Assembly: GCA_017883045.1 (NCBI GenBank)
Contig: JADGOJ010000008.1
Coordinates: 1 to 43,533, forward strand
Reading direction: 5' to 3'
Source: Acidimicrobiales bacterium
Lineage (GTDB): Bacteria > Actinomycetota > Acidimicrobiia > Acidimicrobiales > RAAP-2
DNA: 43,533 nucleotides
Positions 25,392 through 43,188 of this stretch are shown here, piece by piece. The notes beneath the pieces are model-generated. The model was not told the DNA's origin, made no database searches, and worked only from the letters and a program-made list of their open reading frames with translations. The stretch's first letter is position 1. Every line of letters starts with the position of its first letter. The translations under genes and the position numbers were made by a program.

Positions 25392-25396
25392 TTTCC

Positions 25397-28090: not shown

Positions 28091-28314
28091 GGGCTTGGTC
28101 CTGCACAGAAAGATGTGCTGGCAACAATGCCAAAAGACATAACAGGTTGAAACATGAGTGCCCCCCAAAATAGTTGTTAGTGGCTGTCCGTAAGCCGGAG
28201 TAGCCCAAAATCCCTTATCTTCTGCTCTTACTAAATACGGTTGTTCGCTACCACTTCCCCCTCTCTTCTGGATCCATGCCAAGCATGGTCGCGATCACGA
28301 CCACGGGAGGCATT
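28091..28314. promoter_or_regulatory. Intergenic region before the permease gene
   Basis: 224 bp between crotonyl-CoA carboxylase/reductase and the permease, relatively AT-rich, so a separate promoter for the permease is likely. I cannot pick a reliable -35/-10 pair. Confidence 0.3.
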
Positions 28315-29562
28315 TCATCCCGTCGCCAGCCCAGCCTCAACTGCACCGACAAGCACAACGCGATTACCAAAGACCTCGATGCCTTCGGCCATGTCATGAT
28401 GCGCGCGAGCAAGATCCTCGAAGGGGAGAACCTGTCCCGCGCATGGATCGATCGCCCCTTCGTGGAGCAACCGGTTGTAGGCCCACGCTTGGTCGTCGTT
28501 GGTCCCGTGAGACCCTTGGAGTCGCTTCTGAAGCACCCACAAGTAACGTAAGTCGACCATGGCCGAATAGCCGGTGGTGCCCGCGCATATCACCACCATG
28601 CCCCCCCCATCGCAGACGAACATGCTCGTGGGGATGGTCGCCTCGCCAGGATGCTCGATCACCATCTTCGGGTTGCGACGCTCTCCAACAATCTCCCAGA
28701 TCTTCTTGCCGAAAGCGCGGGCTCCGGCCGACCACTCACTCTGACCCTTGGCATCATCCCAATGCGGCGGAATTCCCCAGTGGTCGAAGTCCCGTCGGTT
28801 GATGTAACCGATAGCTCCCAACTTCTTGCAGTATTCACCGCGGGCGTCGTCCGACACGACGGCTACAGGGATACCACCGGCGTACTTCACCAACTGAATG
28901 GCTTGGGACCCGATGCCCCCCGAGCCGCCCCAAACCAGCACGATGTCGCCGGGAGACACTGTGTTCGGCGGCCAGCCGAACAGCATCCGATACGCAGTGC
29001 TACCGACCAGGTTTGGCGCCGCCGCCTCCGCCCACGTCAATTGGGGAGGTTTGGGCAAGATCTGATGCTCCTGCGCCAGGGCGAATTGCGCAAACGAACC
29101 GAAGTTTGCCGCGTCGTATCCCCAGATTCTCGCCGACGGAGCGAGCATGGGATCGCGTCCGGAGCGGACCCAGGGGTCCTCAGCGTCCCACCAGCCGGGA
29201 TGGACAACAACTTCGTCTCCGATCTTCACCTTCGTCACCGCGTCACCGACCCCGTAGACGATCCCCGACGCGTCGCTGCCTCCGATGTGAAAGTCCCAGG
29301 GCGCACCGGCGCGCTGACGTACGGCGATGACATCGATCGGCACGCCACGGGCGGCCCAGACGTTGTTGTAGTTCACGCCGGCGGCCATCACCGCAATGAT
29401 GACCTCGTAGGGCCCGGGAGTAGGCACGGGCACCTCCTCGACGCGGAAGGCAGTAAGGGGGTCGCCGAACCGATCTTGGCGCACAACTTGAGCGAGCATT
29501 CGTTCGGGGAGCGTTCCGAGCGGCGGCAGCTCGCCGATACCGACGATGTCGAGTTTACTCAT
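28315..29562 (-). CDS. ccr: Crotonyl-CoA carboxylase/reductase
   Basis: Enoyl-thioester reductase (MDR superfamily) of 415 aa that carboxylates crotonyl-CoA to ethylmalonyl-CoA with NADPH and CO2, the key step of the ethylmalonyl-CoA pathway. Close family signatures are AAGVNYNNVWAARGVPIDVI, WGYDAANFGSFAQFALAQEH, DIVLVWGGSGGIGSQAIQLV, IEHPGEATIPTSMFVCDGGG and LQKRLQGSHGTNDDQAWAYN. The Asn in NYNNVW, Phe in NFGSF and His in QGSH are positions known for holding CO2; all are kept, but the usual Phe after GSH is Gly here. ATG 29562 has a GGGTGGG ribosome site; a GTG at 29571 is an alternative. It would use the crotonyl-CoA that the Kal-like neighbour should release. Confidence 0.9.
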   Translation of the reverse strand: MSKLDIVGIGELPPLGTLPERMLAQVVRQDRFGDPLTAFRVEEVPVPTPGPYEVIIAVMAAGVNYNNVWAARGVPIDVIAVRQRAGAPWDFHIGGSDASGIVYGVGDAVTKVKIGDEVVVHPGWWDAEDPWVRSGRDPMLAPSARIWGYDAANFGSFAQFALAQEHQILPKPPQLTWAEAAAPNLVGSTAYRMLFGWPPNTVSPGDIVLVWGGSGGIGSQAIQLVKYAGGIPVAVVSDDARGEYCKKLGAIGYINRRDFDHWGIPPHWDDAKGQSEWSAGARAFGKKIWEIVGERRNPKMVIEHPGEATIPTSMFVCDGGGMVVICAGTTGYSAMVDLRYLWVLQKRLQGSHGTNDDQAWAYNRLLHEGAIDPCAGQVLPFEDLARAHHDMAEGIEVFGNRVVLVGAVEAGLATG

Positions 29563-29786
29563 GACACCCACCCGATCTCGGGGGAGCGAGGCTCGTCGGC
29601 GAGGATTCCGTCTAGCGTCACCACCTCAACAAGCTGAAGAGATGAACAAGCGTTCCTTTTCAGCCACCCCTCTTGCTGAAGCGATACGAATTTACCGAGA
29701 CTATTCAAGGTCTCCATTTGTCCTCTCCCTCCCTACGCGGATCAAGGCTCATCATCCCCCAGCGCGAGTAGGCGACCGCATAACCA
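29563..29786. other. Intergenic gap before ccr
   Basis: 224 bp without a gene, between the ammonia-lyase-like gene and ccr. Likely holds a ccr leader or promoter; nothing else identified. Confidence 0.3.
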
Positions 29787-30239
29787 TTACGCAACGACCT
29801 GCCCGGCACGGACGCGCTGAAGGTGCTTCATGACGACGGTTGTTGCAATTGCCTTACACACCAACAGAGGTTCATCCAACACCTCTGCCGCCGACTCTCC
29901 AAGGTCAGGCTTCGCCGCAATCACCTTGTATGCTTCCAACTCACACCTCCGCGAGCTGTTGCCCACTGCCACCAGCCGTCCCCGGGCCTCGATGTAGTCG
30001 CCGCTACGCACCGGGGCGAAGATTTCCACGTTTTCGTAAGCTCGGAGCAACCCCTCGTCGCCGTCGTGACGGACCGTAATCTCGGTCACTAAGTCACCGA
30101 ACAACTCGAGAATCCTCGCTCCAGCCACAAGACCTCCCCCGTAGTGCGCGTCAGTCGCGGCGATCCTTACGCGGAGAAATGCCTCTTCTCGTGCCATTTG
30201 TTCCTCTTCTCGTGCCATCAATTCCTCTTCTCGTGCCAT
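29787..30239 (-). CDS. kal: 3-aminobutyryl-CoA ammonia-lyase-like hotdog protein (Kal-like)
   Basis: Small single-hotdog protein resembling Kal of lysine fermentation, which eliminates ammonia from L-3-aminobutyryl-CoA to give crotonyl-CoA. Family blocks: RVRIAATDAHYGGGLVAGAR, ILELFGDLVTEITVRHDGDE, LLRAYENVEIFAPVRSGDYI, VGNSSRRCELEAYKVIAAKP, and ESAAEVLDEPLLVCKAIAT. Known Kal proteins are about 125-140 aa, so ATG 30197 (136 codons) matches best, while the open frame reaches ATG 30239 (150 codons). The cause is a threefold 21-bp tandem repeat holding ribosome site and start (separate entry). Its neighbours BKACE/Kce and Ccr are the enzymes that would supply and consume its substrate and product. 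Confidence 0.8.
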   Translation of the reverse strand: MAREEELMAREEEQMAREEAFLRVRIAATDAHYGGGLVAGARILELFGDLVTEITVRHDGDEGLLRAYENVEIFAPVRSGDYIEARGRLVAVGNSSRRCELEAYKVIAAKPDLGESAAEVLDEPLLVCKAIATTVVMKHLQRVRAGQVVA

Positions 30240-30244
30240 TTGTT
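30182..30244. repeat. 3 x 21-bp tandem repeat duplicating a translation start
   Basis: Three head-to-tail units (30182-30202, 30203-30223, 30224-30244); units 1 and 3 are identical and unit 2 differs in three bases. On the coding (minus) strand each unit reads AGGAA, a short spacer, ATG GCACGAGAAG, so ribosome site and in-frame ATG recur three times (ATGs ending at 30239, 30218 and 30197). It adds MAREEEL and MAREEEQ to the protein. Confidence 0.85.
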
Positions 30245-30318
30245 CCTATTCCCTTCCACAGTCACTCGCAGCAGCGGAGCCCTGTCTCATCTTGTTGTAC
30301 GACCCTTTGGATTAGGCC

Positions 30319-31731
30319 TCACGCCATCTCCCCATACCGACGAACCTCCCAATCCGAAACTTGTAGGCGATACTTTTCGACCTCGAACCGCTTCATAATC
30401 ACGTAGTACCGAATGAAGTCCTCGCCGAACATCTCGTGAGCAGCCCCGCTTCTTTCGAGAAGGTCAAGGGCTTCGTCCAACGACTGTGGAACAGACTCGA
30501 ACTGATCCGTGGCGTACGCATCGCCCCCGTAAGCCTCAGGCGGCTCCAACTTGTGCTCTATGCCGTACAACCCACCGGCCAGGCACGCAGCAATCGCGAC
30601 GTACGGGTTTGTGTCCGCTCCCGGAAGCCGATGCTCTACTCTTGTACCCGTAGCGTTCTCCGAAATCGCTCGGATGCCGGTAGAGCGGTTGTCGTGACCC
30701 CAACTTACGCTGGTCCCCGCCCACGAGTATGGGACGAAGCGCTTGTACGAGTTGGGAGTCGGCGCAAACAAGGCCGTAAACTCACGCATGGTAGCAAGGA
30801 GACCGCCGATGTAGTGCCGTCCGGTTTCTGAGAGACCGTGTCCGAGAGCATGGTCAAAGAGCACGTTCTTGCCCTCTTCAACGTCCCAGAGCGATTGATG
30901 GATGTGACAGGATGATCCGGCCCACTTGCCGCTCGGCTTGGCCATGAAACAAGCCATCAGTCCGTGCTGGGCGACGATCTCCTTTATCCCGTTCTTGTAG
31001 ATGATGCCGTCGTCAGCGGCCTTGAGGGCCTCCGCGTAGTGCAGGTTGAGTTCGTACTGGCCGGGGCCAGTCTCGGGGTTACTAGCTTCGATCGTCACAT
31101 CGGCATCCGCCATATGACGGCGGATCTGGCCGATGAGCTCCTCGTCCAGACCTCCGCGGTAGACACTGTACGTGTAGGGCCGAGCGTAGAGGGGCTCGAG
31201 GCGCCACCCGGACTCGGCGAGAGCATCAACGTCGCCTCGGAAGATGAAGAACTCGTACTCGAGACCCACGTTGAGCTCGAAGCCCAGGGAGCGAGCCCGC
31301 TCGATCTGCTTTCGCAAGACGTTTCTCGACCCAATCGGAATTACATCACCCGATGCCTTATGGAAGTCCCCCATGACGCCGACCGTCCCCTCGTGCCAGG
31401 ACAAACGCCGCGCTGAGGAGAGGTCGGGTACGACGAAGATGTCGGGAAAGCCCTGTTCTTTACGAGGGAAATAAAACGGATACGTTTCCCCACCGGGCGG
31501 CTCGACCAACTCCTGCCCGTCGTCGGCATCCTCGGCGTGCGTTACCACCAAGAGCACGTCGCTAAAGGCGAAACCGTGATCGAGACGGGCCAAGAACTCC
31601 TCGATGGGAAACCGCTTCCCCCTCCAAATCCCATGAAGGTCAGCCGTTCCGGCGACAACGGTGCGAATGCCTTCAGCCTCGCACCATCGGGCAAACGCCT
31701 CGGGGTCTTTTGTCGCGACAGGAAGTTTCAT
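30319..31731 (-). CDS. Glutamine-synthetase-like gamma-glutamyl-amine ligase (PuuA/IpuC/GlnA3 type)
   Basis: Type I GS-fold ligase of 470 aa that would join the gamma-carboxyl of glutamate to an amine with ATP. Seen: metal-binding Glu residues in FELNVGLEYEFFIF and NPETGPGQYELNLHYAE, ATP/metal His in GKWAGSSCHIHQSLWD, KRFVPYSWAGTSVSWGHDNR and ENATGTRVEHRLPGADTNPY. The N-terminal HGIWRGKRFP replaces the DF.G region of true GS and resembles polyamine- and alkylamine-glutamylating enzymes. Its ATG overlaps the stop of the acetone-carboxylase-type gamma subunit gene (ATGA), so it is made with the carboxylase. With the PuuD-like hydrolase in the same operon it likely attaches and later loses a glutamyl mask on an amine substrate. 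Confidence 0.87.
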   Translation of the reverse strand: MKLPVATKDPEAFARWCEAEGIRTVVAGTADLHGIWRGKRFPIEEFLARLDHGFAFSDVLLVVTHAEDADDGQELVEPPGGETYPFYFPRKEQGFPDIFVVPDLSSARRLSWHEGTVGVMGDFHKASGDVIPIGSRNVLRKQIERARSLGFELNVGLEYEFFIFRGDVDALAESGWRLEPLYARPYTYSVYRGGLDEELIGQIRRHMADADVTIEASNPETGPGQYELNLHYAEALKAADDGIIYKNGIKEIVAQHGLMACFMAKPSGKWAGSSCHIHQSLWDVEEGKNVLFDHALGHGLSETGRHYIGGLLATMREFTALFAPTPNSYKRFVPYSWAGTSVSWGHDNRSTGIRAISENATGTRVEHRLPGADTNPYVAIAACLAGGLYGIEHKLEPPEAYGGDAYATDQFESVPQSLDEALDLLERSGAAHEMFGEDFIRYYVIMKRFEVEKYRLQVSDWEVRRYGEMA

Positions 31732-32204
31732 TGTCTCCTCAATTCGACTGCTCCTAGGTCGAGCTCAACGTTGAAGATGAACGGATAGCCTCGAGGCACA
31801 ACCTCTACGTCGAGTTGGGTCGCACACCCCGGGCAGTAGAACTCCCTCAGAATGCTCCAGTCCGGATCAGCGACCCTCGGGCCACGATAGATAGCATCGG
31901 CATCTGCGCCTGCTCGCTCGAAGACGAGCGCTGACTCCTTCCAGTTCCTCTGGTAGTCCCCGAACTCCTGACCACAATCACAGCGGACCACTTTCGAACC
32001 ATCGTCCTTTTCCACGACGTACAAATGCGCCTGCAAGCACAGCAGAATCCGCTCCGGCCATTCGAGGCGTTCTTGCTCCAGTCGAAGGACCTGCTCGAAG
32101 CGGTCTTCATCCTTGTCCTGGCGCTGTAGCCCCTCGAGTTCCTCGCTGGACAGTCCATCGCGAAGGAGGTCCCTGATCAGTTCGTCCGGGTACTCGGGCA
32201 TCAC
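31728..32204 (-). CDS. acxC: Acetone carboxylase gamma-subunit-like protein
   Basis: Small Zn-binding subunit of 158 aa. Seen: VVRCDCGQEFGDYQRNWKES, then DPDWSILREFYCPGCATQLD and VVPRGYPFIFNVELDLG. The CxC...CxxC cysteines and the surrounding WK, IREYYCPGC and YP residues match acetone carboxylase gamma (PF08882), whose usual length is about 165 aa. This subunit is what separates carboxylases of this family from plain hydantoinases/oxoprolinases and argues strongly that the next two genes also encode a carboxylase. The start overlaps the alpha subunit's stop by four bases. Confidence 0.85.
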   Translation of the reverse strand: MMPEYPDELIRDLLRDGLSSEELEGLQRQDKDEDRFEQVLRLEQERLEWPERILLCLQAHLYVVEKDDGSKVVRCDCGQEFGDYQRNWKESALVFERAGADADAIYRGPRVADPDWSILREFYCPGCATQLDVEVVPRGYPFIFNVELDLGAVELRRQ

Positions 32205-34354
32205 TCCACCTCCTCATCATCGCGATCCGGGTCGGTCATCTCCCAGCTCTCTGGCAGTCCCCAGAACTCGAGGAATGCTCGGCGGAACGCCTCGGAGGAA
32301 CCGAGCACCGCGTGGAACATCCGAGCGGTCGGCTTGGCGAGGTCGCCGCGCAGGATTGTTTCCCGCTCGCGAGCCTTGTACTGCTGCGCCGGCATACCTA
32401 CGCTTCGGCGTTCTTCGCGCTGTTTCCGTCGCAACTGTTCGGTCGCCGCGACGTCGACCTCCATTGTCTCCGGATCAATCGCCACGCAGTACACATGCCG
32501 TGCCGTCCAGTGCGTCGTCACCTGGTTCTCTAGATCGCGCAGAATCAGTTCGGGATCCCGCTCGATCGGGTCGCCGAAACCGCCACCATCCCCGGTCATC
32601 GCCGTGAACAGATCGCCCTCTCGGGCCGGCTGGGCCGACCGGTTGGCGCCGGGAATCAACTCCCACCGGGCCTCGACCATTTCTACGAAGTCCGGGTGGG
32701 CAGGGTCCTCACCCTCCCCAGACGGAATGGGGCGCCCCTCGGCGATCAACCGGTGCATGTTCGTCCGGCTCCCGACCCACATGTACAGTGCACCCGCCGG
32801 GTAGCCGCCCATCAAGCCGGGCGCGGAGTAGATTGGAGCGGCGCCGAACGCTCCGATGTCGATGTCCTTTGTTCCAGACACTAGGTACAGCGACATGACG
32901 CCGTTCCCGCCGCGGTACTTTCCGTAACCGCCGCCGTCCACGTGAATCTCCCGCGAAAGATACACGGGTGGCAACATCTGCTCCCAGATCTCGGCGTCGC
33001 CCATTTCGCCCTCCGGGTTGAATTCCACGCCAGCGGTGTCCAGGCCATCCATCACTGCCGTGGCAAATAGTCCGGCCGCCGCGAACTCGAAGTTATGGGC
33101 TCCGAATGGCCGGCCGTACTGGTCTAGGCCCCCAGCCGTGTAGGCCGACGACAGCGCGCTCGTCGCGTGAACCTCCTCGCGGTACCCCTTCGCGTAGTAA
33201 GCACGACTGATGGCCTGGCCCGACGCCAGGCCAGCTCCGTACGTAATGCCCCACAACGCAGTGGGGTAGAAGATCGAGGACGGATTCCCCGCACTCCCCT
33301 TGGGGACGTTCAGACCGATGTTGAGCAGCACGCCCTCGTTGTGCTTGAGGTCGTAGAAGAGATTCTGAATGACGACGTTCATCACGAGACCCTCGATCGT
33401 GGGCAGCGTGCCCTGGAACGGGTGCCGGCCAGCTGGTGACATCCCCTCGTAGTCGAAGTTCAGCCGTCCCTCTCGGGTCACCGTCATCGCCACCGGGCCG
33501 TGCAATAAGGTCTCGTCACCCGGCATCATGCTGCCTCGCCAACTGACCTCACGGTAGGTTCCCGGGGGCAGGACCTTACGGATGCGCTGCTCCGCCGCGA
33601 GGCGTGTGTCCTCGATGTACTCTCGGCAGGCCTTGGCAAAATAGTCCACGCCGAACTGTCCAATGAGGCCCTTCACGTCCTCGCGGATGATCTGGCTCCC
33701 GGTGATCTTTGCCCGGTTGTCCGTGAGCCAGTAGATCGGACTGCGGATCCCGCGCTCCACGAGCACCTCGAGATCACGTTTGATCTTGTCATTCTCCGCC
33801 ACCTTCACGCACGGCAAGAACAGCCCCTCGTCGAAGCGCGACCGGGCGAACGGGATGAACCCGCCAGGCTCGGAGCCTCCGGTCTCCGGCGTGTGCGTGA
33901 GACCTCCGGCCCACCCGACCAGTTCACCTTCCCACCAAATGGGGGTGACAATCATCTGGTCCGGGCAGTGCGCCCCGCCGATGTAGGGGTCGTTGTTGAA
34001 GTAGTGGTCGCCCTCGGCGAAGCCCGGATCGTCTTCGTAACCGTTCTCGATCATCCACTTAATCATCCGGCTCATCGTCTTGACGTGGATGAGGAGCCCA
34101 CGCGACAGCGCGACAGCATCCCCCTCGGGCGTGTACAAGCCGAAGATGATCTCTCCCAACTCGCGGCTCATGGGTGAAGCCGACACCCGACGTGCCACCT
34201 CGTGCGCGCTGGTCACCGATTCGACCATCTTCGAGTACAGCAGTTCGAAGCGAATCGGATCGCGCTCCTTCAACTCGAGCTTTTCCTCGTACCGGCCCAA
34301 TTCGGCCATCCGTCGGTCTCGTTCGAGAAGCCGATCTTTGAGTGACATCATCAT
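32201..34354 (-). CDS. acxB: Acetone carboxylase alpha-subunit-like (hydantoinase B family)
   Basis: Large subunit of about 717 aa in the HyuB/AcxB family, where CO2/phospho-intermediates are joined at a metal site. His129, Asp132 and His154, counted from this start, lie in IGGAHCPDQMI and GGLTHTPETGG. Their spacing (3 then 22 residues) is, from memory, the same as the Mn ligands His150-Asp153-His175 of the Xanthobacter acetone carboxylase alpha subunit. Further typical blocks are DPGFAEGDHYFNNDPYIGGA and GYGKYRGGNGVMSLYLVSG. ATG 34354 has GGAGG four bases upstream and overlaps the beta subunit stop (ATGA); ATGs at 34351 and 34348 follow at once. It differs from acetone carboxylase alpha (about 770 aa) by being shorter, so a substrate other than acetone is possible. 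Confidence 0.85.
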   Translation of the reverse strand: MMMSLKDRLLERDRRMAELGRYEEKLELKERDPIRFELLYSKMVESVTSAHEVARRVSASPMSRELGEIIFGLYTPEGDAVALSRGLLIHVKTMSRMIKWMIENGYEDDPGFAEGDHYFNNDPYIGGAHCPDQMIVTPIWWEGELVGWAGGLTHTPETGGSEPGGFIPFARSRFDEGLFLPCVKVAENDKIKRDLEVLVERGIRSPIYWLTDNRAKITGSQIIREDVKGLIGQFGVDYFAKACREYIEDTRLAAEQRIRKVLPPGTYREVSWRGSMMPGDETLLHGPVAMTVTREGRLNFDYEGMSPAGRHPFQGTLPTIEGLVMNVVIQNLFYDLKHNEGVLLNIGLNVPKGSAGNPSSIFYPTALWGITYGAGLASGQAISRAYYAKGYREEVHATSALSSAYTAGGLDQYGRPFGAHNFEFAAAGLFATAVMDGLDTAGVEFNPEGEMGDAEIWEQMLPPVYLSREIHVDGGGYGKYRGGNGVMSLYLVSGTKDIDIGAFGAAPIYSAPGLMGGYPAGALYMWVGSRTNMHRLIAEGRPIPSGEGEDPAHPDFVEMVEARWELIPGANRSAQPAREGDLFTAMTGDGGGFGDPIERDPELILRDLENQVTTHWTARHVYCVAIDPETMEVDVAATEQLRRKQREERRSVGMPAQQYKARERETILRGDLAKPTARMFHAVLGSSEAFRRAFLEFWGLPESWEMTDPDRDDEEVE

Positions 34355-36498
34355 GCTTCCTCCATCCACATTGTCCGGTACTCGTCTAGGCGAATCCGCC
34401 GCCCCGGTGGCACGACCAGCGTGGTCGTGGAATCCTCAATAATGACCGGGCCCGAGAGCTCGTTACCGGGGCGAAGCTGAGTCATCGCGAACACCCGCAC
34501 GTCGCGCCAGCCGCCGCCGAACCAGGCCTGCCGCGGGACCTTCAGAGAATCGTCCGGCGGCTTGGCGGAGCCCAACGCCTCCGCCCGGAGCTTCGGGCGA
34601 ATCTTCTCGGTGTAGGCCACCACACCGACTTCGAGTATCTCGTAGCCCGCCTGCGGATACTTCGCCGCGATTGCGTACATGCGTTCATACAGCTTCTCAA
34701 ATGTCTCGATGAGGCGGTCCCAGTCAGTGGAGGTTTCCAGCTGCTCGACTGGCGAGTCAACGATCAGGTCGTTCAACTGCCGCCCGTAGCGAATCATGGC
34801 CAGTGTACGAAACTGAACGACGGAGGGATCGAAACCCTCCCGCTGCATTTGTGCGAGACCTTGTTCGCGTAACTCTCTCCACACCCGAGTGATCTGAGAG
34901 CCCAATTCCACCTTCACCTCATCGGAGGCCTCCGGTGGAACGATCACGTTCATCGCCCGCGTGTAGTGGCGCTCGTAATCGGCGGCCGCCGCACCGAAAG
35001 CCGAGAATGCTGCGGAGAACGGGAACGCCATGATACCGGCGAGCTTCAGCCCCTCCGTGTACCCGGCCATGTGCGAAGGACCAGCTCCGCCGAAAGCGAG
35101 GAGATGATAGTCAGAAAGTTCGAAGCCCCGGGTGGCGATCAGCCCTGAAATCGCGTCGCGCATCTTCGCATCAGCAATGGTCTTTATGCCCTCCGCGGCC
35201 TCCTCCACGCTCATGCCCAGCGGCTCAGCAATGCGCTCTTTGATAGCCCGCCGAGCGGCCTCGAGATCGAGCTTGATGCGGCCCCCGATGAAGTAGGAAG
35301 GATCCAAGTAGCCCAGCGCAAGGTCAGCATCGGTAACAGTGGGTTCGGTCCCCCCGCGGCCATAACACACCGGTCCGGGATCCGAGCCGGCTGACTGCGG
35401 GCCAATCTCCAGACGGTGTGTTAGCGCCTCGATCCGGGCGATGGTGCCGCCGCCAGTCCCGATCGACAGGATCTCGACCATCGGAATGCCAAGAAGCATC
35501 CGGGCCACGCTCGATTCGCGGTTCACGTTCAGGACCCCGCCCGACACCACGCCCACGTCGAAACTGGTGCCACCGACGTCAGTGGTGATCATATTGTTGA
35601 ACCCGTAGATCTCTCCGATGTAACGCCCACCGATGACCCCGCCAGCCGGCCCCGACTGGACGGTATCGACCCCCCTCACGTGCACCGCTGGCGCGAGGCC
35701 GCCGGTCGACTGCATGATCTGCAGTTCCCCGCGAAACCCCCGCTCCTCCAGACGAGCCTGCATATCGCGGAATGCGCCGCGTGCAATGTCGCCCGTATAC
35801 GCCTCAAGAATCGCGGCGTTCATCCTGGGGAGTTCACGGATGACTGGTGAGACGTCCACGGAGGTCACGACGCGTACCTCGCACCCCCGCTTCTGCGCTA
35901 CCTCAGCAATGATCTCGGCGGTTCGCCGTTCGTGAGAGGGGTTGAGGAACGACCAGAGGAAGCACACGACTATCGCATCGACCCCACCATCTAGAAGCGC
36001 CTCAGTTCCCGATCTGACCTCGTCCTCGTAGAGCGGCACGACCTCGCGCCCCAGGCAATCAATCCGTCCGGTCACGCCGTGGACTAGCGACCGGGGCACG
36101 ATTGGTTTGTTGTGTCGGTGAGTCATCGGATGCAAACGGGCCGCACGGTCCAGATCGACCCAGGTCTGCTTTCCACGCTCCATCAACAGAATGCTCTCGA
36201 ACCCCTTCGTCGTGAGCAGGCCTGGAGTACGCCCAGACCTGGTGAGGATGGCGTTCAAAACAACCGTCGAGCCGTAGCCAAGCACCTGCAGGCTCGGCAA
36301 TACGTCGTTAACTTCCATCCCCCACTTTGCACAAGCAGTCTCGATTGCCGCCAAGAACCCGCTCGCCATGTCGCCGTGCGTCGAGGGGGACTTGCCAGTG
36401 ACGTAGTCGCCCTCGGCGTCCACGATGAACGCGTCGGTGAACGTCCCGCCGACATCGATGTAGCAGAGCGTGGGGGTGCGGCCCAGAGTATCGGTCAT
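34351..36498 (-). CDS. acxA: Acetone carboxylase beta-subunit-like (hydantoinase A/oxoprolinase family)
   Basis: ATP-using subunit of 715 aa, almost the length of the acetone carboxylase beta subunit (about 717). The phosphate-binding motif DVGGTFTD is at residues 15-22; a second is in TTDVGGTSFDVGVVSGG. Also seen: GYGSTVVLNAILTRSGRTPG, GPAGGVIGGRYIGEIYGFNN and FGGAGPSHMAGYTEGLKLAG. In these enzymes the subunit phosphorylates bicarbonate and the ketone (enol) at the cost of ATP. The start overlaps the PuuD-like stop (ATGA). HyuA alone would also fit N-methylhydantoinase or oxoprolinase; the gamma subunit and metal-site spacing in alpha favour a ketone carboxylase. Confidence 0.85.
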   Translation of the reverse strand: MTDTLGRTPTLCYIDVGGTFTDAFIVDAEGDYVTGKSPSTHGDMASGFLAAIETACAKWGMEVNDVLPSLQVLGYGSTVVLNAILTRSGRTPGLLTTKGFESILLMERGKQTWVDLDRAARLHPMTHRHNKPIVPRSLVHGVTGRIDCLGREVVPLYEDEVRSGTEALLDGGVDAIVVCFLWSFLNPSHERRTAEIIAEVAQKRGCEVRVVTSVDVSPVIRELPRMNAAILEAYTGDIARGAFRDMQARLEERGFRGELQIMQSTGGLAPAVHVRGVDTVQSGPAGGVIGGRYIGEIYGFNNMITTDVGGTSFDVGVVSGGVLNVNRESSVARMLLGIPMVEILSIGTGGGTIARIEALTHRLEIGPQSAGSDPGPVCYGRGGTEPTVTDADLALGYLDPSYFIGGRIKLDLEAARRAIKERIAEPLGMSVEEAAEGIKTIADAKMRDAISGLIATRGFELSDYHLLAFGGAGPSHMAGYTEGLKLAGIMAFPFSAAFSAFGAAAADYERHYTRAMNVIVPPEASDEVKVELGSQITRVWRELREQGLAQMQREGFDPSVVQFRTLAMIRYGRQLNDLIVDSPVEQLETSTDWDRLIETFEKLYERMYAIAAKYPQAGYEILEVGVVAYTEKIRPKLRAEALGSAKPPDDSLKVPRQAWFGGGWRDVRVFAMTQLRPGNELSGPVIIEDSTTTLVVPPGRRIRLDEYRTMWMEEA

Positions 36499-37217
36499 GT
36501 TCGAACCTTCCTTGCAGCATCAACGAAAAAACGAAATAACTTGAAACCAGAGTGCTCGAAACCCAGGCACTCAGGGTGCCACTGGATCCCAACGGCGAAG
36601 TGGAGGTCGGGAGCCTCCACGGCTTCCACCAATCCGTCGGGTGATCGACCCACCGCAACCAGTCCATCCCCCAATTCGTCGATCGCCTGATGATGCATCG
36701 AGTTGACATCGATCTCTTCGCCCAGCAGGCGTGCGAGGAGGCTTCCCGGCTCAAACCGGACAGGATGAACGACCCGGTCCCACCGTTCCAAGTCGTGGTG
36801 CCTCAAGGCCCCCGGAACCTCCGCATCGATGTCTTGGATCAACGAACCGCCGAGCGCGACATTCATCACTTGCACCCCGCGACAGATGGCGACCAACGGG
36901 AGATCGCGTGCCACGGCGGCGCGGGTGAGACTCAGCTCGAAGCGATCCCGCCGGGGATCGATCCCGTCCGTCAGAGGTGAACGCTCTCGCCGATACTCGG
37001 ACGGATCGATATCCCCACCCCCCGTGAGGACCACACCGTCCAGTCGCTCTACCAAGTCTGGATCGAACTCCTGGTGCACGGGCAGAACCACCGGCGTCGC
37101 CCCCGCCTCACGGATCAGATTGAGGTACATCTCTGGTACCGTCTCGTGCGGCAATACCTTGTCGAAGCCCGTACGGGCCTGCCGCGGGATTGAGGTCACA
37201 CCAATGAGCGCCTTCAT
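36495..37217 (-). CDS. Class I glutamine amidotransferase-like hydrolase (PuuD/gamma-glutamyl hydrolase type)
   Basis: Hydrolase of 240 aa related to PuuD, which cleaves gamma-glutamyl-GABA. The nucleophile Cys is near residue 112 in LVAICRGVQVMNVALGG, and the His/Glu pair is in FAVGIQWHPECL. GVVLTGGGDIDPSEYRRERS and DVNSMHHQAIDELGDGLVAV are typical of the PuuD group. ATG 37217 overlaps the enoyl-CoA hydratase stop and its stop overlaps the carboxylase beta start (both ATGA). With the GS-like ligase downstream it makes a glutamyl-on/glutamyl-off pair around a carboxylase, which is unusual. It may also act on other gamma-glutamyl amides. Confidence 0.87.
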   Translation of the reverse strand: MKALIGVTSIPRQARTGFDKVLPHETVPEMYLNLIREAGATPVVLPVHQEFDPDLVERLDGVVLTGGGDIDPSEYRRERSPLTDGIDPRRDRFELSLTRAAVARDLPLVAICRGVQVMNVALGGSLIQDIDAEVPGALRHHDLERWDRVVHPVRFEPGSLLARLLGEEIDVNSMHHQAIDELGDGLVAVGRSPDGLVEAVEAPDLHFAVGIQWHPECLGFEHSGFKLFRFFVDAARKVRT

Positions 37218-38017
37218 GAGCGCACTCCTTCGCCGGGCGCCTCGCGATAACTCGGCTCCCGCTTCTCGAGGAATGCTCCCAAGCCCTCCCGAGCCTGGCC
37301 CTCGGAAACGCAGGACAAGATGGCCTCCACCTCGTGATGGAGCGCAGTTTCGAGCGAACTCTCCTCGGCCGCGTCCAAAAGCGTGCGAGACAGTCGGAGA
37401 GCTAAGGGTTCGCTACCAGCAAGTCGGCATCCAAGCGCGACCGCCATCGCGACCACCTCCTCCGGCTCGCACACGCCGTCCACAAGGCCGATGCGGTACG
37501 CCTCGTCCGCTTCCACCGTTTCGCCAGTGAACAGCATCCGACGCGCCCACCCCCTGCCCACCAGCCGGGGCAGCAGCCAACTGGCGCCGCTCGTCACGGT
37601 CAGGCCGATCCGCGTCTCGGGGAAGCCGAGCACCGCGGTTCGCGACGCCAGGCGGATGTCGCAGGCGCAAGCGATCTCGCACCCGGCGCCGACGGCGACT
37701 CCGTTCACGGCGGCGATCACGGGAACCGAACTGGCCCGCACAACGCGGGTCAGTTCCTGGATGTCTTCGACGAAACGACGAAACTCCGACAATGACGCGT
37801 TCACCATCAGGCGAACGTCGGCACCCGCCATGAAGGCCCGTCCCGCGCCGGTTAGCACGATGGCTCGGACCGAAGGATCGGCACCAACAGTGCGGAGGAC
37901 CTCAATCAGGCGTGCCAGCAGGTCCCCGTTGAGCGCATTGAGAACCTCTGGGCGCCCGATGGTGAGCACCGCGACCGGGCCCTCCCACGCCACGTCGAGG
38001 AAACCGTTGTCACCCAC
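37214..38017 (-). CDS. Enoyl-CoA hydratase/isomerase family protein
   Basis: Crotonase-fold enzyme of 267 aa. Seen: VLTGAGRAFMAGADVRLMV (oxyanion loop), NGVAVGAGCEIACACDIRLA (with catalytic-region Glu) and GFPETRIGLTVTSGASWLLP (second Glu). The C-terminal FLEKREPSY is usual. GTG 38017 overlaps the BKACE stop by 8 bases. It probably hydrates an enoyl-CoA such as crotonyl-CoA to 3-hydroxyacyl-CoA, a branch parallel to the Ccr route; isomerase activity is also possible. Confidence 0.88.
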   Translation of the reverse strand: MGDNGFLDVAWEGPVAVLTIGRPEVLNALNGDLLARLIEVLRTVGADPSVRAIVLTGAGRAFMAGADVRLMVNASLSEFRRFVEDIQELTRVVRASSVPVIAAVNGVAVGAGCEIACACDIRLASRTAVLGFPETRIGLTVTSGASWLLPRLVGRGWARRMLFTGETVEADEAYRIGLVDGVCEPEEVVAMAVALGCRLAGSEPLALRLSRTLLDAAEESSLETALHHEVEAILSCVSEGQAREGLGAFLEKREPSYREAPGEGVRS

Positions 38018-38840
38018 GGGCCACCCCCAGGATTTCCCGTGCTTGGTCCGGAGTGGCTACAGGTCGTCCCAACTCTTCAGCGATTCGCCGGGCCCGCGCC
38101 ACCAGTTCGGCGTTGGACGTGGCCAACACTCCCTTGCGATAGTAGATGTTATCCTCGAAGCCCACCCGCATGTGTCCGCCCATCGCGCAGGCGAGCGTCA
38201 TGAGCGGAAGCTGGTGTCGCCCGATCCCAGTAACAGTCCACTGTCCGAGCCGAGGACGCTCGCGCAACATCGCGAGCAGGTTCTCGGGGCTGGCCGCCAC
38301 CCCACCTCGAACACCCATCACGAAGTTATACAGAGGCGGCTCGTCCAATAGCCCCAGGCCGATGAGCCGCCCGACCGTGGCCAGCATCCCGAGGTCGTAA
38401 GTCTCTAGCTCGGGTCGGATCCCCTCGACCTGCATCCGTTTGGCCAGGGCTTCGATTAGCGCTGGGGAATTATCGAAGATCTCGTTGTCGAAATTCATGC
38501 TGCCGCAGTTCAGGCTGGCAATTTCCGGCCGGGCGTCGAGTACCTTAATCCGCTCTTCCTGGCTCATCCCAACCTCGGCCCCGGTGGACATCCCAATCAC
38601 CACGTCGCATCGCTCTCGAACGAGATCGGCGATCCGTCGTAGAACATTAGGATCCGCGGTGGGTCGTCCGTCGTTAAGACGAGCATGGATGTGAACTACG
38701 GACGCGCCCTCGCTTGCCGATGAAGCCACCTCGTCTGCGATTTCCTCGGGAGTAATCGGCAGGTGTGGGTTCTGCTCCCGAGTCACCTCAGCCCCCGTAG
38801 GAGCCACGATGATGACAACGGGATCTGTCGACCAAGTCAT
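38010..38840 (-). CDS. BKACE/3-keto-5-aminohexanoate cleavage enzyme family protein (Kce-like)
   Basis: Zn-dependent TIM-barrel enzyme of 276 aa that converts a beta-keto acid plus acetyl-CoA to acetoacetate plus an acyl-CoA. Seen: IIVAPTGAEVTREQNPHLPI, Zn ligands His50 and His52 in GASVVHIHARLNDG, and ACAMGGHMRVGFEDNIYYRK, which carries the Zn-binding Glu. LNCGSMNFDNEIFDN and LYNFVMGVRGGVAASPENL are usual. A Glu (18) follows the first PTGA, where Kce has an acidic residue for the substrate amine, but similar residues occur in other BKACE subgroups. Kal-like and CoA-transferase genes nearby are its partners in lysine fermentation. Confidence 0.88.
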   Translation of the reverse strand: MTWSTDPVVIIVAPTGAEVTREQNPHLPITPEEIADEVASSASEGASVVHIHARLNDGRPTADPNVLRRIADLVRERCDVVIGMSTGAEVGMSQEERIKVLDARPEIASLNCGSMNFDNEIFDNSPALIEALAKRMQVEGIRPELETYDLGMLATVGRLIGLGLLDEPPLYNFVMGVRGGVAASPENLLAMLRERPRLGQWTVTGIGRHQLPLMTLACAMGGHMRVGFEDNIYYRKGVLATSNAELVARARRIAEELGRPVATPDQAREILGVARG

Positions 38841-39223
38841 ATCCCCATCTCCTCACGCTGGCTCATAGTGCAGTTAGAAACACGAGATACGACGTCTAGA
38901 CGCAAGGATGCGTTCCACCCAAGCACTTCGCTCTTTGAGCGCGACGTTGACTCCGGCGCAGACGACCTCGATTGAACGGGAAAAGGAGGAACTGCACCTG
39001 GCGAGCAACGTTGCTGTATCTCCCTCTGCTCGTCCGTAATCAGATCAAGCACGCCCAACCCAGGTTCAGCCTGCGGCAGCGAGATGTCTTGGAAGTTCGT
39101 CGCGCCGGCGATATCTAACGGAGTTTCCGACGTCCGGCTCGACCCATGCAACTTGCGAAAGTCCCCGAAAGAACCTCGGCAACTCACGTCGCCCCGGCCG
39201 TTGTTGGCGAAGCACCTGCTCAT
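38837..39223 (-). CDS. Unidentified ORF between TetR and BKACE genes
   Basis: A 128-aa frame that overlaps the TetR stop (ATGA at 39220-39223) and the BKACE start (ATGA at 38837-38840), which favours a real coupled gene. No family is recognised. The stretch GLGVLDLITDEQREIQQRC resembles the N-terminal helix of acyl-CoA dehydrogenases, but the rest is Ser/Arg-rich and shows no fold. It may be a decayed dehydrogenase fragment or a spacer frame. Confidence 0.35.
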   Translation of the reverse strand: MSRCFANNGRGDVSCRGSFGDFRKLHGSSRTSETPLDIAGATNFQDISLPQAEPGLGVLDLITDEQREIQQRCSPGAVPPFPVQSRSSAPESTSRSKSEVLGWNASLRLDVVSRVSNCTMSQREEMGI

Positions 39224-39993
39224 GCTCCGCTACTCCTTCGCGTCTCCACCCTACGAGTGGTGACACTCTTAGCCACTTTCGCTCCTTCGCGAATCGACTG
39301 GCCGTCTCGACCAACGCGAACGACCCGCTGCCCTGACTTCTTCGCCTCCGAACTCTGTGCCGCAGCGCCACTTGACGCTTTATCGCTCGTGGTCACGATG
39401 CCTTGGAAGAACAGATCCGTGTAACCGTCGGCGATATCTTCCAGCGAGAGCCGGCCTCCTGGGCGGTACCACACGGCCACCCCCGTGCACATTGCCATTA
39501 GGGCGAAGAGGGCCAACCTGGTATCCCCGAAGCGGAAGACACCTTGTTCGCTTCCCTCAGTGAGCAACTCGGTGAAGATCTGCTCGTACTGGTTCCGCAT
39601 CTTCATCACTGCCTTGCGTCCCGCAGGTTCAAGAGACCGCATCTCATTGTCCAGGATGAACGCCTCGTTCCTCCGACCAGCGTGGAACAGGATGTGGCCG
39701 CGAACCGCAGCCTTAAGCCGCTCCATTGGACCCTCATCACGGTGCCCGCTAATCGCTGTCTCGACCGTGGAGATCAGATCCCGCATTGAGCGGGTCATTA
39801 TCTCGACGAGGAGATCCTGCTTGCTCGGGAAGTGGTAATAGAGAGAGGACATCTGCAACCCGACGGCACCGGCTACCGCCCGGAGTGACGTGCCATGGAA
39901 ACCGCGCTCGGAGATCAGGTCGACTGCAGCCGCGTAGATCTCCCGCTCCGTTTCCCTTCCCTTGCCACTCTCATTCTTGCCGTCACCCAACAT
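39220..39993 (-). CDS. TetR/AcrR-family transcriptional regulator
   Basis: Regulator of about 257 aa. The HTH lies near residues 18-63 (REIYAAAVDLISERGFHGTS then GLQMSSLYYHFPSKQDLLVE). The ligand domain ends at DLFFQGIVTTSD, after which a 50-residue basic, low-complexity tail is unusual (RVGRDGQSIREGAKVAKSVT). This tail is absent from most TetR proteins and might be DNA-binding or a misread extension. ATG 39993 follows a GGGGGGTGAG ribosome site. A near-perfect 28-bp dyad starts 24 bp upstream. It heads the catabolic operon, so it is the likely repressor of these genes and itself. Confidence 0.88.
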   Translation of the reverse strand: MLGDGKNESGKGRETEREIYAAAVDLISERGFHGTSLRAVAGAVGLQMSSLYYHFPSKQDLLVEIMTRSMRDLISTVETAISGHRDEGPMERLKAAVRGHILFHAGRRNEAFILDNEMRSLEPAGRKAVMKMRNQYEQIFTELLTEGSEQGVFRFGDTRLALFALMAMCTGVAVWYRPGGRLSLEDIADGYTDLFFQGIVTTSDKASSGAAAQSSEAKKSGQRVVRVGRDGQSIREGAKVAKSVTTRRVETRRSSGA

Positions 39994-40017
39994 CACTCAC
40001 CCCCCAAAAGACTTCCC

Positions 40018-40045
40018 ATAATCAATCGATCGTTCGATTGTTTAT
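40018..40045. promoter_or_regulatory. 28-bp dyad, likely TetR operator
   Basis: ATAATCAATCGA and TCGATTGTTTAT are inverted arms (11 of 12 pairs) around TCGT; the inner CAATCGA/TCGATTG is perfect. It is 24 bp upstream of the TetR start. The size and symmetry match operators of TetR regulators of CoA-thioester catabolism. I found no second copy upstream of the CoA-transferase genes. Confidence 0.7.
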
Positions 40046-40139
40046 TTGATTTCAAAAAAGATTAGTCCGGGCACGTCACTGTGTCAAGTCTCTTAGCGGA
40101 ATTTAAGTTCGAGCCAGATAACGCACAGGAACTGGGTCA

Positions 40140-40990
40140 CAGTGCGTGGCGAACACGGCCATCGCGACGCGCCTTCAGGTGTCGCCGACCAGCGTGGTGG
40201 CCTGGGGGCACCACTTCTGCGAGAGGACTCGCCAAGTTCGGACTGGTGCGTTCCGGACAAGGTCACATACCCGAGATTCCCCCAGGGAGGATCGACGATA
40301 TCGTTCGCCTGACCCAGTAGACCACGCCCGACTGTCATACTCGCTAGAGTTGCCGGTCGATGGCCAAGATCGCAAGCGTGAGTGCGGCCACCGTGCAGCG
40401 AGTGTGGTCCGCACAGGACCCAGACCACACTTAGTCAAGTCGTCCAAGTTCTCGAAGGAAGCCCACTTCGATGAGAAGCTCGCTGACGTGGTCGGGCTCT
40501 ACCATCACCCACTCGACTGGGCCATGGCGCTGCGAATGGACCAAAAGAGTCAGATCCAGATGCTGGACCGATCACAACCATTATTGCCGAGGAAGAAGGA
40601 ACGCGCCGGCACGATGAACCACGACTATGAACGGAGCGGCGGCGCCACGCTCCTCGCCGCGCTGAACGTGCTCACCGAAGTAGTAGTCGGCGAGCGCCCG
40701 CCGCGAAGAGTATTTCGAGTGCCTGCGTCGAGTCGACCGCAGACTTCCGAGATCACTTCAAGTTCATCGCATTTTGGATGACCACGCCACTCACAAGCAC
40801 CCCCACGTCACTGCGTGGTTGGCCGAGCACCCTCGTTTCCACCTGCACTTCACTCCGACGTCGAGTCTGTGCCTCAATCTCCTCGGAGGGTGATTCCACG
40901 AGATCACCAAGATGGCAATCCAATGCGCCGCATTTCCTTCAGTGTCCGGCCTCGTCACCACGATCGAGATCAACTTGAATGCGAATATTG
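40140..40990 (+). pseudogene. IS630-family transposase, frameshifted
   Basis: Pieces of one IS630 transposase occur in order: NTAIATRLQVSPTSVVAWGH (N-terminal HTH), KFSKEAHFDEKLADVVGLYH, then RMDQKSQIQMLDRSQPLLPR, where VDEKSQIQ holds the first Asp of the DDE core (still Asp here), MNHDYERSGGATLLAALNVL, then in other frames DDHATHKHPHVTAWLAEHPR and FHLHFTPTSSLCLN. Several frame changes and lost segments mean it is inactive. It splits the CoA-transferase genes from the rest of the catabolic operon. Confidence 0.7.
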
Positions 40991-41070
40991 AAAATCCAAT
41001 ATCTTCGTCTGGGTCGCCACACCTAGGAGTATCCTCTAGAAATTGCGTATGTCACGGTGTCACGAGAGGT

Positions 41071-41712
41071 TTACTCCAACGCGACAAGAAGATCTGGTCC
41101 GGTCGCGGCTCTGACCTCGTCAAGTGTGACGCCGGGCGCCAGTTCGCGCAGCACGAGGCCTTGAGGCTCGACATCAATCACGGCGAGATCAGTGATGATC
41201 CGATGTACGCACGTTCTGCCAGTCAGCGGCAATGTGCACTCGTTCACGATCTTGGGATCGCCACCCTTGGCCGTGTGCTCCATCATGACGATCACTCGTT
41301 TCGCTCCGTGAACGAGGTCCATGGCTCCGCCCATGCCCTTGACCATCTTTCCGGGGATCATCCAATTGGCTAGGTCTCCATGGGCCGATACCTGCATGGC
41401 CCCAAGAACTGCAACGTCGACGTGACCGCCGCGAATCATGGCGAACGAAGTAGCCGAGTCGAAATACGACGCTCCGGGCAGGACCGTCACAGTCTCTTTG
41501 CCGGCATTGATGAGATCCGCGTCAATCGCCTCTTCCGCAGGATAAGGTCCCACGCCGAGAATGCCGTTCTCAGCGTGCAGCACCACCTGCAACCCGTCAG
41601 GCACGAAGTTTGGCACCAGCGTTGGCAACCCAATTCCAAGGTTGACGTACTGTCCGTCAGTCAACTCAGCGGCAACTCGCGCCGCCAGTTCATCTCGCGT
41701 AAAGCCGTTCAC
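41071..41712 (-). CDS. 3-oxoacid CoA-transferase, subunit B (AtoA/ScoB-like)
   Basis: Beta subunit of 213 aa of a family I CoA-transferase. The catalytic Glu is at about residue 48 in [16 protein letters not shown], followed by [20 protein letters not shown] and [23 protein letters not shown] 41712 overlaps the subunit A stop (GTGA). It would activate acetoacetate, product of BKACE or of acetone carboxylation, to acetoacetyl-CoA with succinyl-CoA or another acyl-CoA as donor. It is separated from the other genes by an IS630 pseudogene. Confidence 0.92.
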
Positions 41713-42455
41713 TGTGCCACCGTTCTCTTCTCAATCCGCTTTTCAACGTCAAGTGCAACGACCACACGATGCACGAAGATCCCCGGCGTGTGTACGTGCA
41801 TTGGGTCTAGATCACCGGGCTCGACCAGTTCTTCAACTTCGGCGATCGTTATTCGTCCTGCGGACGCGCACAGCGGGTTGAAGTTCTGAGCGCTCTTCTC
41901 ATAGATCAAGTTCCCGTGACGATCTCCGTAGCGTGCGTGCACCAGGGCAAAGTCGGTACGAATTCCTCGCTCGAGAACAAAACGCACTCCATCGAACTCT
42001 CGCACCTCCTTCGGCGGTGATGCGACGGCGATGCCACCGCTACCGTCATATCGCCATGGCAGTCCGCCTTCGGCGACCTGGGTACCCACTCCGGCTGGTG
42101 TGTAGAAAGCTGGGATGCCCGCGCCGCCCGCTCTCAACCGCTCGGCCAAGGTGCCCTGTGGAACTAACTCCACTTCCAACTCTCCCGAGAGAAACTGGCG
42201 CTCAAATTCCTTGTTCTCGCCAACGTAGGAGCCCGTTGTTCGCCGAATCCGTCTAGCCGACAGCAGCACCCCGAGGCCCCACCCATCAACCCCGCAGTTA
42301 TTACTGACCGTTACAAGGTCTGTGGAACCACTCGCCAGCAACGCCTCAATTAGCGCGGCCGGAATTCCGCACAATCCAAAACCGCCCACGGCAAGTGATG
42401 CACCACTGGGAATATCTTGCACTGCTTCGCCTGCAGTGCGAATGACTTTGTTCAT
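41709..42455 (-). CDS. 3-oxoacid CoA-transferase, subunit A (AtoD/ScoA-like)
   Basis: Alpha subunit of 248 aa. The CoA-binding motif of the family is in [20 protein letters not shown], then [40 protein letters not shown] and [20 protein letters not shown]. With subunit B it forms a heteromeric transferase. Succinyl-CoA:3-ketoacid and acetate/butyrate:acetoacetate transferases cannot be separated by eye. Confidence 0.92.
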
Positions 42456-42981: not shown

Positions 42982-43009
42982 GTTCGGCAGCAAGGTGAGA
43001 TGATTGGTT

Positions 43010-43080: not shown

Positions 43081-43188
43081 GTCGACTGCACCAGTTGGAC
43101 TGCGGAAGCGCTTACGCGCAGTGACAACGTATCCTGAATCGGTATGGGTTTACCGGAGTGACTGACCTGTACTGGGTTTCCTGGAGAC

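Follow-up and report, generated by a model that had tools for sequence, protein, structure and literature searches.

The window analysed here is a complete contig of 43,533 bases (C49; GenBank JADGOJ010000008.1) from the draft genome of an Acidimicrobiales bacterium (2.28 Mb in 156 contigs, 94% complete). Its minus strand carries a gene cluster in which a three-subunit ketone carboxylase of the acetone carboxylase type is combined with the beta-keto acid cleavage enzyme BKACE (also named Kce), a relative of the 3-aminobutyryl-CoA ammonia lyase Kal and a pair of enzymes predicted to attach and remove gamma-glutamyl groups. Judging from the encoded proteins, the cluster probably serves to take up and degrade a primary amine bearing a methyl ketone or oxidised to one, and breakdown would proceed via gamma-glutamyl masking of the amine, carboxylation of the ketone and cleavage by BKACE. 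This reading builds on gene identities, operon structure, conserved catalytic positions and recurrent co-occurrence in other genomes, from which we infer all reactions, their order and the substrate.

A carboxylase operon with predicted gamma-glutamyl enzymes

From position 42,455 down to 25,690, the cluster encodes the 3-oxoacid CoA-transferase subunits ScoA and ScoB, a TetR-family regulator, BKACE, an enoyl-CoA hydratase family protein (ECH), a PuuD-type hydrolase, the carboxylase subunits HyuA (beta), HyuB (alpha) and gamma, a ligase resembling glutamine synthetase (GS), the Kal-like lyase, a crotonyl-CoA carboxylase/reductase (Ccr), a permease and a short-chain dehydrogenase (SDR), in this order (Table 1). 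The seven genes from BKACE to the GS-like ligase form an operon, in which neighbouring genes overlap by 4 to 19 nt. Downstream of the GS-like gene, gaps of 79, 215, 32 and 94 bases precede the genes for Kal, Ccr, the permease and the SDR, respectively; upstream of BKACE, 379 bases lead to the TetR gene and a further 1074 nt separate the latter from ScoB. A frame of 128 codons at 38837-39223 matched no family and is probably not a gene. The grouping is not due to chance, given the overlap of seven genes and the reappearance of most of the set in other genomes. The original prediction, made from the letters of the stretch, had named the carboxylase, BKACE, Kal, Ccr, ECH and the CoA-transferase, and family-model scores and coordinates bear out every one of these genes; however, it had overlooked the GS-like ligase and the PuuD-type hydrolase within the operon. 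The TetR regulator, the permease and the SDR were also absent from it.

The best solved-structure match of each carboxylase subunit is a chain of the acetone carboxylase of Xanthobacter autotrophicus (5svb; E values of 2e-133 for alpha, 8e-158 for beta and 2e-23 for gamma), followed by chains of acetophenone carboxylase (2e-63 for HyuB, 5e-127 for HyuA and 7e-11 for gamma). Hydrolases of the same superfamily match more weakly: N-methylhydantoinase 7hk5 reaches 2e-25 with HyuB and 2e-86 with HyuA, and 6yra, which is listed as hydantoinase and 5-oxoprolinase and which we take to be caprolactamase, reaches 2e-21 and 1e-106. Alignment of the alpha subunit with 5svb, counted by eye, shows that E73, H134, D137 and H159 correspond to the four metal ligands Glu89, His150, Asp153 and His175 that are given for the Xanthobacter protein in an excerpt of PMC8453981; all four are thus conserved. 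The beta subunit contains the ATP motifs, two of the type DxGGT (DVGGTFTD and DVGGTSFD) and one GxxPGP (GSDPGP), which are also found in the hydrolases of the superfamily. HyuA, HyuB and gamma are classified as a three-subunit ketone carboxylase of the acetone carboxylase type, for which an ATP- and bicarbonate-dependent activity is predicted. One other HyuB-type place is present in the genome, a weaker match on contig C28 with 28% identity.

It is improbable that the three proteins instead form an ATP-dependent lactam or cyclic-amide hydrolase acting in amine degradation. The superfamily includes hydrolases, and the top NCBIfam model for HyuA is the alpha subunit of caprolactamase (465 bits, cut-off 1000), followed by an acetophenone carboxylase subunit (459.8 bits, cut-off 1500). 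However, acetone carboxylase is the top solved match of all three subunits, the gamma subunit matches exclusively carboxylase chains among solved structures at E < 0.001, and the adjoining BKACE, or the CoA-transferase III and thiolase that take its place in loci described below, require a beta-keto acid. The lactamase reading was set aside on the basis of the solved-structure comparison.

The GS-like protein aligns with true GS across the catalytic domain and retains the glutamate and metal positions; at the position of the flap Glu of true GS (VPGYEAP), it has Trp (VPYSWAG), both features being read by eye. According to PMC6529630, the flap Glu is lost in the amine-specific enzymes PauA7 (Trp) and GlnA4 (Phe), loss of ammonium-site residues is linked to the use of amines, and the GlnA4 cluster includes genes for a short-chain dehydrogenase, a transporter and a glutamine amidotransferase. 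By its residues, the window protein belongs with the gamma-glutamylamide synthetases of the PuuA/GlnA4/PauA7 type, and its acceptor is predicted to be an amine. The hydrolase matches PuuD (6vtv_A) with 4.5e-31 and retains the ICRG and WHPE motifs; it scores below the PuuD equivalog cut-off (PRK11366, 113.2 bits versus 266). A scan of the genes between 25.7 and 42.5 kb detected neither an amine oxidase nor an aldehyde dehydrogenase, the enzymes of oxidation of the Puu/GlnA4 type. The presence of both ligase and hydrolase in the operon suggests that the amine nitrogen is masked with glutamate while the ketone is carboxylated.

Table 1. Features of the cluster, listed by position in the window
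Feature	Position	Strand	Evidence
SDR oxidoreductase, candidate ketone-forming dehydrogenase (putatively from an amino alcohol)	25690..26484	-	PF13561 2e-58
APC amino-acid/amine permease, candidate importer of the substrate	26579..28282	-	PF13520 7e-28
Crotonyl-CoA carboxylase/reductase (Ccr)	28315..29571	-	TIGR01751 513.1 bits, cut-off 378.55
Kal-like 3-aminobutyryl-CoA ammonia lyase	29787..30239	-	NF052388 157.8 bits, cut-off 160 (just under)
GS-like gamma-glutamylamide synthetase, putative amine capping	30319..31731	-	PF00120 4e-104
Carboxylase gamma subunit	31728..32204	-	PF08882 4e-29; 5svb_C 2e-23
Carboxylase alpha subunit (HyuB-type)	32201..34369	-	5svb_A 2e-133
Carboxylase beta subunit (HyuA-type, ATP-using)	34351..36498	-	5svb_B 8e-158
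PuuD-type gamma-glutamyl hydrolase, putative cap removal	36495..37217	-	PF07722 1.5e-63, 214.9 bits
ECH family: hydratase or BvaB-type beta-aminoacyl-CoA ammonia lyase	37214..38017	-	PF00378 2e-59
BKACE/Kce (beta-keto acid + acetyl-CoA -> acetoacetate + acyl-CoA)	38010..38840	-	PF05853 7e-106, 354 bits
TetR-family regulator	39220..39996	-	PF00440, PF17932
3-oxoacid CoA-transferase subunit B (ScoB; acetoacetate activation)	41071..41712	-	TIGR02428 344.7 bits, cut-off 243.55
3-oxoacid CoA-transferase subunit A (ScoA)	41709..42455	-	TIGR02429 241.5 bits, cut-off 128.5

Recurrence of the gene set and exchange of the cleavage module

A profile built from two HyuB sequences, applied via two short peptide patterns to species genomes in a scan that was not exhaustive, yielded four loci (L048 to L051). 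Counting the window genome and genome G257 wherever they were sampled, HyuB matches were obtained at 1e-60 in 19 of 396 genomes of the phylum, and at 1e-150 in 3 of 232 genomes of the order of G257, 2 of 395 of the window class and 2 of 399 of the class of G257. None of 24 genomes matched in a same-genus search at 0.001; a member of the genus, G859, was matched in the class-wide search. Eight of the 19 phylum-matched genomes, with weaker or partial matches, are excluded from the neighbourhood counts. Six loci were compared with the window: L048, the nearest one, from Actinomycetota; L049 from Solirubrobacteraceae, of which 16,241 bases are identical to contig C57 of G257; L050 together with G457, counted once since 3449 of 3449 bases of the HyuA-HyuB contig of G457 are identical to the end of L050; L051 from Chloroflexi; L058 from G859; and L060 from G558. 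The stretches comprise 17 to 22 kb for L048, L049, L051 and L058 (parts of the contigs in the case of L048 and L051); L060 is covered by its entire contig of 11.5 kb, and L050/G457 by short contigs.

L048 contains genes for a TetR regulator, permease, Kce, ECH, PuuD, carboxylase and GS; L049 has the same content without ECH, plus Kal and an SDR. L050 adds Kal, GS and TetR to the HyuA-HyuB pair shared with G457. The alpha and beta genes of G457 lie on a different contig from its gamma (AcxG)-PuuD-Kce-permease genes, which are ordered as in L049. Thus, the shared set of GS, carboxylase, PuuD, BKACE and permease is found in three other lineages (L048, L049 and, across contigs, G457), and GS and PuuD are additionally present in L058. 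BKACE is encoded on the carboxylase stretch in four of the six loci (L048, L049, L060 and, at a distance of 4 kb, L051) and lies two genes from gamma in a fifth (G457). L058 lacks BKACE, and none was found in the G859 genome at 1e-20. The Kal proteins of L049 and L050, encoded next to GS, are 57% and 60% identical to that of the window. Relatives of the permease occur in L048 (66%), L049 (38%) and L072 (39%), TetR relatives of 40 to 60% identity in L048, L049 and L050, and an SDR of 38% identity follows the permease in L049 as well. The co-occurrence of carboxylase and BKACE, which had been predicted from one contig, hence extends beyond it, and the proposed search for the same gene set in other genomes recovered most of it (L048, L049 and L050/G457). 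Two further searches yielded no relatives: five stretches of viral contigs fitted a BKACE pattern, none of them a true relative, and a family search around G140 gave no matches in two genomes, a search run without a control.

Ccr, ECH and the CoA-transferase had also been counted as members of the set; however, they are not conserved across the six loci. Ccr had no match at 1e-5 in L048 to L052, L058, L060 and L072 and was seen in the window cluster alone, ECH is present in L048 only (76% identity), and ScoAB lies beyond the TetR gene, so that all three appear peripheral. Crotonyl-CoA and acetoacetate would be the substrates of Ccr and the CoA-transferase, yet both look like local additions. 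Regarding an ethylmalonyl-CoA route, the genome has three mutase-family places, two of which match general models for methylmalonyl-CoA mutase that do not tell ethylmalonyl-CoA mutase apart, and the third has an internal stop.

L058 encodes a transporter, a GntR regulator, a thiolase, two GS-like proteins (one just under the Pfam cut-off), HyuA, HyuB, gamma, PuuD and a CoA-transferase III. The same kinds of genes, together with two SDRs, a GlmL-family protein and a 590-residue protein with a B12 domain, are found in a second locus of G257 on contig C14. GS, carboxylase and PuuD are retained in both loci, CoA-transferase III and thiolase are present, and BKACE is not. CoA-transferase and thiolase are the other usual means of splitting a beta-keto acid; this exchange therefore provides an independent indication of a beta-keto acid as product. 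Since, moreover, carboxylase and BKACE are combined in L051 and L060, where the stretch covered contains no amine genes, the carboxylase product is most likely a beta-keto acid.

Some features of these loci deserve mention in their own right. In the C14 locus (L044:14499-19994 and L061:787-10228), the 590-residue protein has a C-terminal B12-binding domain as its sole recognised domain and is encoded beside the GlmL-family accessory protein; it is possibly a novel B12-dependent mutase. In L060 (329-6056, G558:C427), the carboxylase genes beta, alpha and gamma are directly followed by BKACE. The carboxylase and BKACE of L051 (2323-17065) are encoded amid three HGD-D proteins and two BadF-type ATPases, and this locus may represent an anaerobic route for ketones that involves no amine genes. 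A benzoyl-CoA reductase was considered there and rejected, as the subunits score well under the cut-offs; they are graded as dehydratase/reductase family only.

A putative route and its alternatives

The window BKACE is a clear member of its superfamily (PF05853, gathering cut-off 24.8 bits), and its best solved relative is Kce 2y7d (6e-73). Window Kce and Kal are 45-46% and 52-55% identical, respectively, to the proteins of adjacent kal-kce pairs in Acetoanaerobium noterae and Fusobacterium vincentii, which we take to be lysine fermenters and whose records are unannotated at these places. An alignment of eight Kce proteins (window, L048, L049, L051, L060, A. noterae, F. vincentii and 2y7d; the F. 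vincentii row contains two stop symbols, both within added flanks) has invariant His46, His48, Glu143, Arg226, Glu230 and Asp231, while Ser82 is retained in seven and replaced by Thr in L060. Glu14, which presumably takes part in amine binding, is present in all but L051, where it is Val. The best family of the L051 protein is 3,5-dioxohexanoate cleavage, below cut-off (378.8 versus 430). The likeness of Kce and Kal to kce-kal pairs makes a 5-amino-3-oxo acid plausible as substrate, as had been predicted. As described in an excerpt of PMC3149608, 3-keto-5-aminohexanoate is converted to 3-aminobutyryl-CoA and on to crotonyl-CoA. In the window, 5-amino-3-oxohexanoate is the most likely intermediate, with crotonyl-CoA as product; the ketone would then be 4-aminopentan-2-one, a plausible identity that the original prediction had also considered.

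The route that we favour, carboxylation of a gamma-glutamyl-masked amino ketone, would begin with import of the amine by the APC permease and ATP-driven ligation of glutamate to its nitrogen by the GS-like enzyme; the cap would keep the amine from cyclising, undergoing elimination or reacting with activated CO2. If the substrate is a secondary amino alcohol, the SDR would oxidise it to the ketone; this protein matches several SDR models below their cut-offs, for instance meso-2,3-butanediol dehydrogenase (205.9 bits versus 270). The carboxylase would then phosphorylate bicarbonate and the ketone enol and add CO2 at the methyl group, and the PuuD-type hydrolase would remove glutamate to give the 5-amino-3-oxo acid. 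BKACE is predicted to exchange with acetyl-CoA, yielding acetoacetate and a beta-aminoacyl-CoA, from which Kal, or perhaps ECH in L048, would release ammonia. The resulting enoyl-CoA could be used via ECH or Ccr, and ScoAB would activate acetoacetate.

A less likely but quite possible variant retains the masking and assumes a different amino ketone, either 4-aminobutan-2-one, leading to beta-alanyl-CoA and acryloyl-CoA, or diacetonamine, leading to beta-valinyl-CoA and 3-methylcrotonyl-CoA. Among solved structures, the Kal-like protein has a single relative, a beta-alanyl-CoA ammonia lyase (2.4e-19); however, the Kal proteins of the window, L049 and L050 reach 157.8 to 162.4 bits on the 3-aminobutyryl-CoA lyase model, compared with 118.3 bits for a fragment of 121 residues of the beta-alanyl-CoA lyase of C. 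propionicum. Beta-valine, according to PMC4619459, is degraded via its CoA ester by a PaaK-like ligase and ECH-family ammonia lyases. L048 encodes both a PaaK-like ligase and ECH and has no Kal within 22 kb; by analogy, the ECH of the window and L048 may be an ammonia lyase.

Two adjoining pathways might also be encoded, although this seems unlikely: GS and PuuD would convert isopropylamine or a similar amine to acetone, from which the carboxylase would make acetoacetate, and BKACE and Kal would serve another purpose. ScoAB is compatible with acetoacetate, and plasmid pTC1 of Paenarthrobacter aurescens carries an annotated ipuC near genes for a Kal-like protein, an SDR and a PuuD-like protein. 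On the other hand, BKACE heads the overlapping seven-gene operon, it is found beside the carboxylase in L051 and L060, which lack amine genes in the stretch covered, although acetone would not require it, and the scan of genes from 25.7 to 42.5 kb gave no sign of an amine dehydrogenase or hydroxylase.

It is highly improbable that the genes are a remnant of lysine fermentation, in which 5-amino-3-oxohexanoate would be formed from lysine by aminomutases encoded elsewhere, and the carboxylase would be unrelated or salvage a decarboxylated intermediate. The resemblance of Kal and Kce to the pairs of lysine fermenters would fit such an origin, but GS and PuuD have no role in lysine fermentation, and no kamA-type lysine 2,3-aminomutase (TIGR00238) was found in the 94% complete genome by a search that was positive in 9 of 14 control genomes. 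This result sustains the earlier statement that the cluster does not represent standard lysine fermentation as far as kamA is concerned; kamD (lysine 5,6-aminomutase, PF09043) was searched without a positive control, and kdd was not searched.

Several observations weigh against the masked-carboxylation route. Window Kce (349.6 bits, cut-off 382) and Kal (157.8 bits, cut-off 160) both stay under their NCBIfam equivalog cut-offs, as do Kce of L048 (357.0) and L049 (293.8) and Kal of L050 (158.9); Kal of L049 passes (162.4). Kce positions 106 and 108 vary, being Gly and Glu in L049, and Kal occurs in only two of the six other loci (L049 and L050) and not in L048. Kal relatives of 62-65% identity belong to Streptomyces plasmid clusters of a different kind, with ectoine-type and carrier-protein genes, so that the substrate cannot be read from similarity to Kal. 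Removal of glutamate before BKACE acts is deduced solely from Glu14 and its presumed role in amine binding, and the BKACE of L060 keeps Glu14, yet neither GS nor PuuD is encoded on this contig. None of ten distant carboxylase loci (L038 to L047; HyuB identity of 33-37% by tblastn) has BKACE within 17-20 kb, PuuD, GS and CoA-transferase III occur together in L044 (the C14 locus) alone, the only one for which additional flanking DNA was covered, and a thiolase (30-33%) is found in three others. The pairing of carboxylase with BKACE is therefore a minority arrangement among the carboxylases examined; the HyuB of L060, at 37% identity, is no closer than those of the ten distant loci, and this locus entered via the 1e-150 limit.

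Four further settings of related genes were noted. The pTC1 locus (L069:2465-19123), with the annotated ipuC, a permease, the Kal-like gene, a CoA ligase, two glutamine amidotransferases, an SDR and a P450, represents a further pathway of gamma-glutamylated amines that includes a Kal relative. The Streptomyces plasmid Kal-like proteins (L065:8467-16328, L066:8482-16443 and L068:5236-10148) are encoded with a carrier protein, an adenylating enzyme and ectoine-type genes. Sinorhizobium meliloti, a culturable host, carries carboxylase beta, alpha and gamma genes and an SDR beside molybdenum oxidoreductase genes on pSymB (L034:9833-15500), with neither GS nor BKACE nearby. Finally, a HemL-like class III aminotransferase adjoins a PfkB kinase (18964-20229) in the left part of the window, which is high in G+C, a setting that looks unrelated; a HemL-like Kat acts on 3-aminobutyryl-CoA in a different pathway, according to an excerpt of PMC3149608.

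Origin, significance and comparison with known systems

The G+C content is 0.65-0.71 in the left 25 kb of the window and 0.57-0.63 in the right part (25001-43533), in which codon-position bias is mostly lower; a transposase fragment is located at 42688-42981. In L048, the set is flanked by genes for peptidase S58, a universal stress protein, a lactamase-fold protein and LysE, none of which belongs to a family recognised in the window. These differences suggest that the gene set of the right part was acquired horizontally, a chimeric contig being an alternative.

It is tempting to speculate that bacteria make general use of gamma-glutamyl-masked ketone carboxylation as a so far undescribed strategy of catabolism, in which an amino methyl ketone is capped with glutamate, carboxylated, uncapped and split by either of two interchangeable modules, BKACE with a beta-aminoacyl-CoA ammonia lyase or CoA-transferase III with thiolase, and that elsewhere among bacteria the pairing of carboxylase and BKACE by itself serves for non-amine ketones; we regard the chances of this generalisation as evenly balanced. 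If the masked route proposed for the window holds true, gamma-glutamylation of amines, ATP-dependent ketone carboxylation and BKACE cleavage would be united in a single route, acetone carboxylase relatives would gain a role past acetone and acetophenone, with their chemistry extended to amines, and the presence of Kce- and Kal-like genes in a genome in which lysine 2,3-aminomutase was not found could be accounted for. Concrete substrate predictions would become available for enzymes automatically annotated as hydantoinase or glutamine synthetase, with the exchanged cleavage module indicating the chemistry to be expected. In the openly licensed literature, BKACE and acetone carboxylase were not found together, nor was 3-keto-5-aminohexanoate with acetone carboxylase, and the combination of gamma-glutamyl with acetone carboxylase led, by title, to Helicobacter or caprolactamase topics only; wider searches likewise gave no title on this combination, and those for the compounds and enzymes by name yielded background at most. 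Thus, the enzymes are of known kinds, and their combination is one not found in that literature.

The window enzyme shares its three subunits, each with acetone carboxylase as top solved match, and the conserved metal ligands with the acetone carboxylase of X. autotrophicus; however, it is clustered with a gamma-glutamyl ligase, a hydrolase and BKACE, and its ketone is presumably an amine derivative. The acetophenone carboxylase Apc of Aromatoleum aromaticum belongs to the same superfamily and likewise converts a ketone and CO2 to a beta-keto acid, but has two HyuA-type subunits, whereas the window has one. Downstream of Apc, a ligase and a thiolase reportedly follow, compared with BKACE in the window and CoA-transferase III and thiolase in L058 and the C14 locus. 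Kce and Kal are homologous to the kal-kce pairs of lysine fermentation; in the window genome, the beta-keto acid presumably arises from carboxylation and not from aminomutases. The degradation of beta-valine by BvaA/BvaB of Pseudomonas SBV1 also converts a beta-aminoacyl-CoA to an enoyl-CoA and employs a PaaK-like ligase and ECH as encoded in L048, whereas carboxylation, gamma-glutamylation and BKACE are not mentioned in the abstract and excerpts of PMC4619459. The Puu, GlnA4 and Ipu pathways have the permease, the GS-like ligase and the PuuD-type hydrolase in common with the window; however, their middle part is oxidative and leads via an aldehyde to an amino acid, whereas the masked intermediate of the window is presumably carboxylated and later cleaved.

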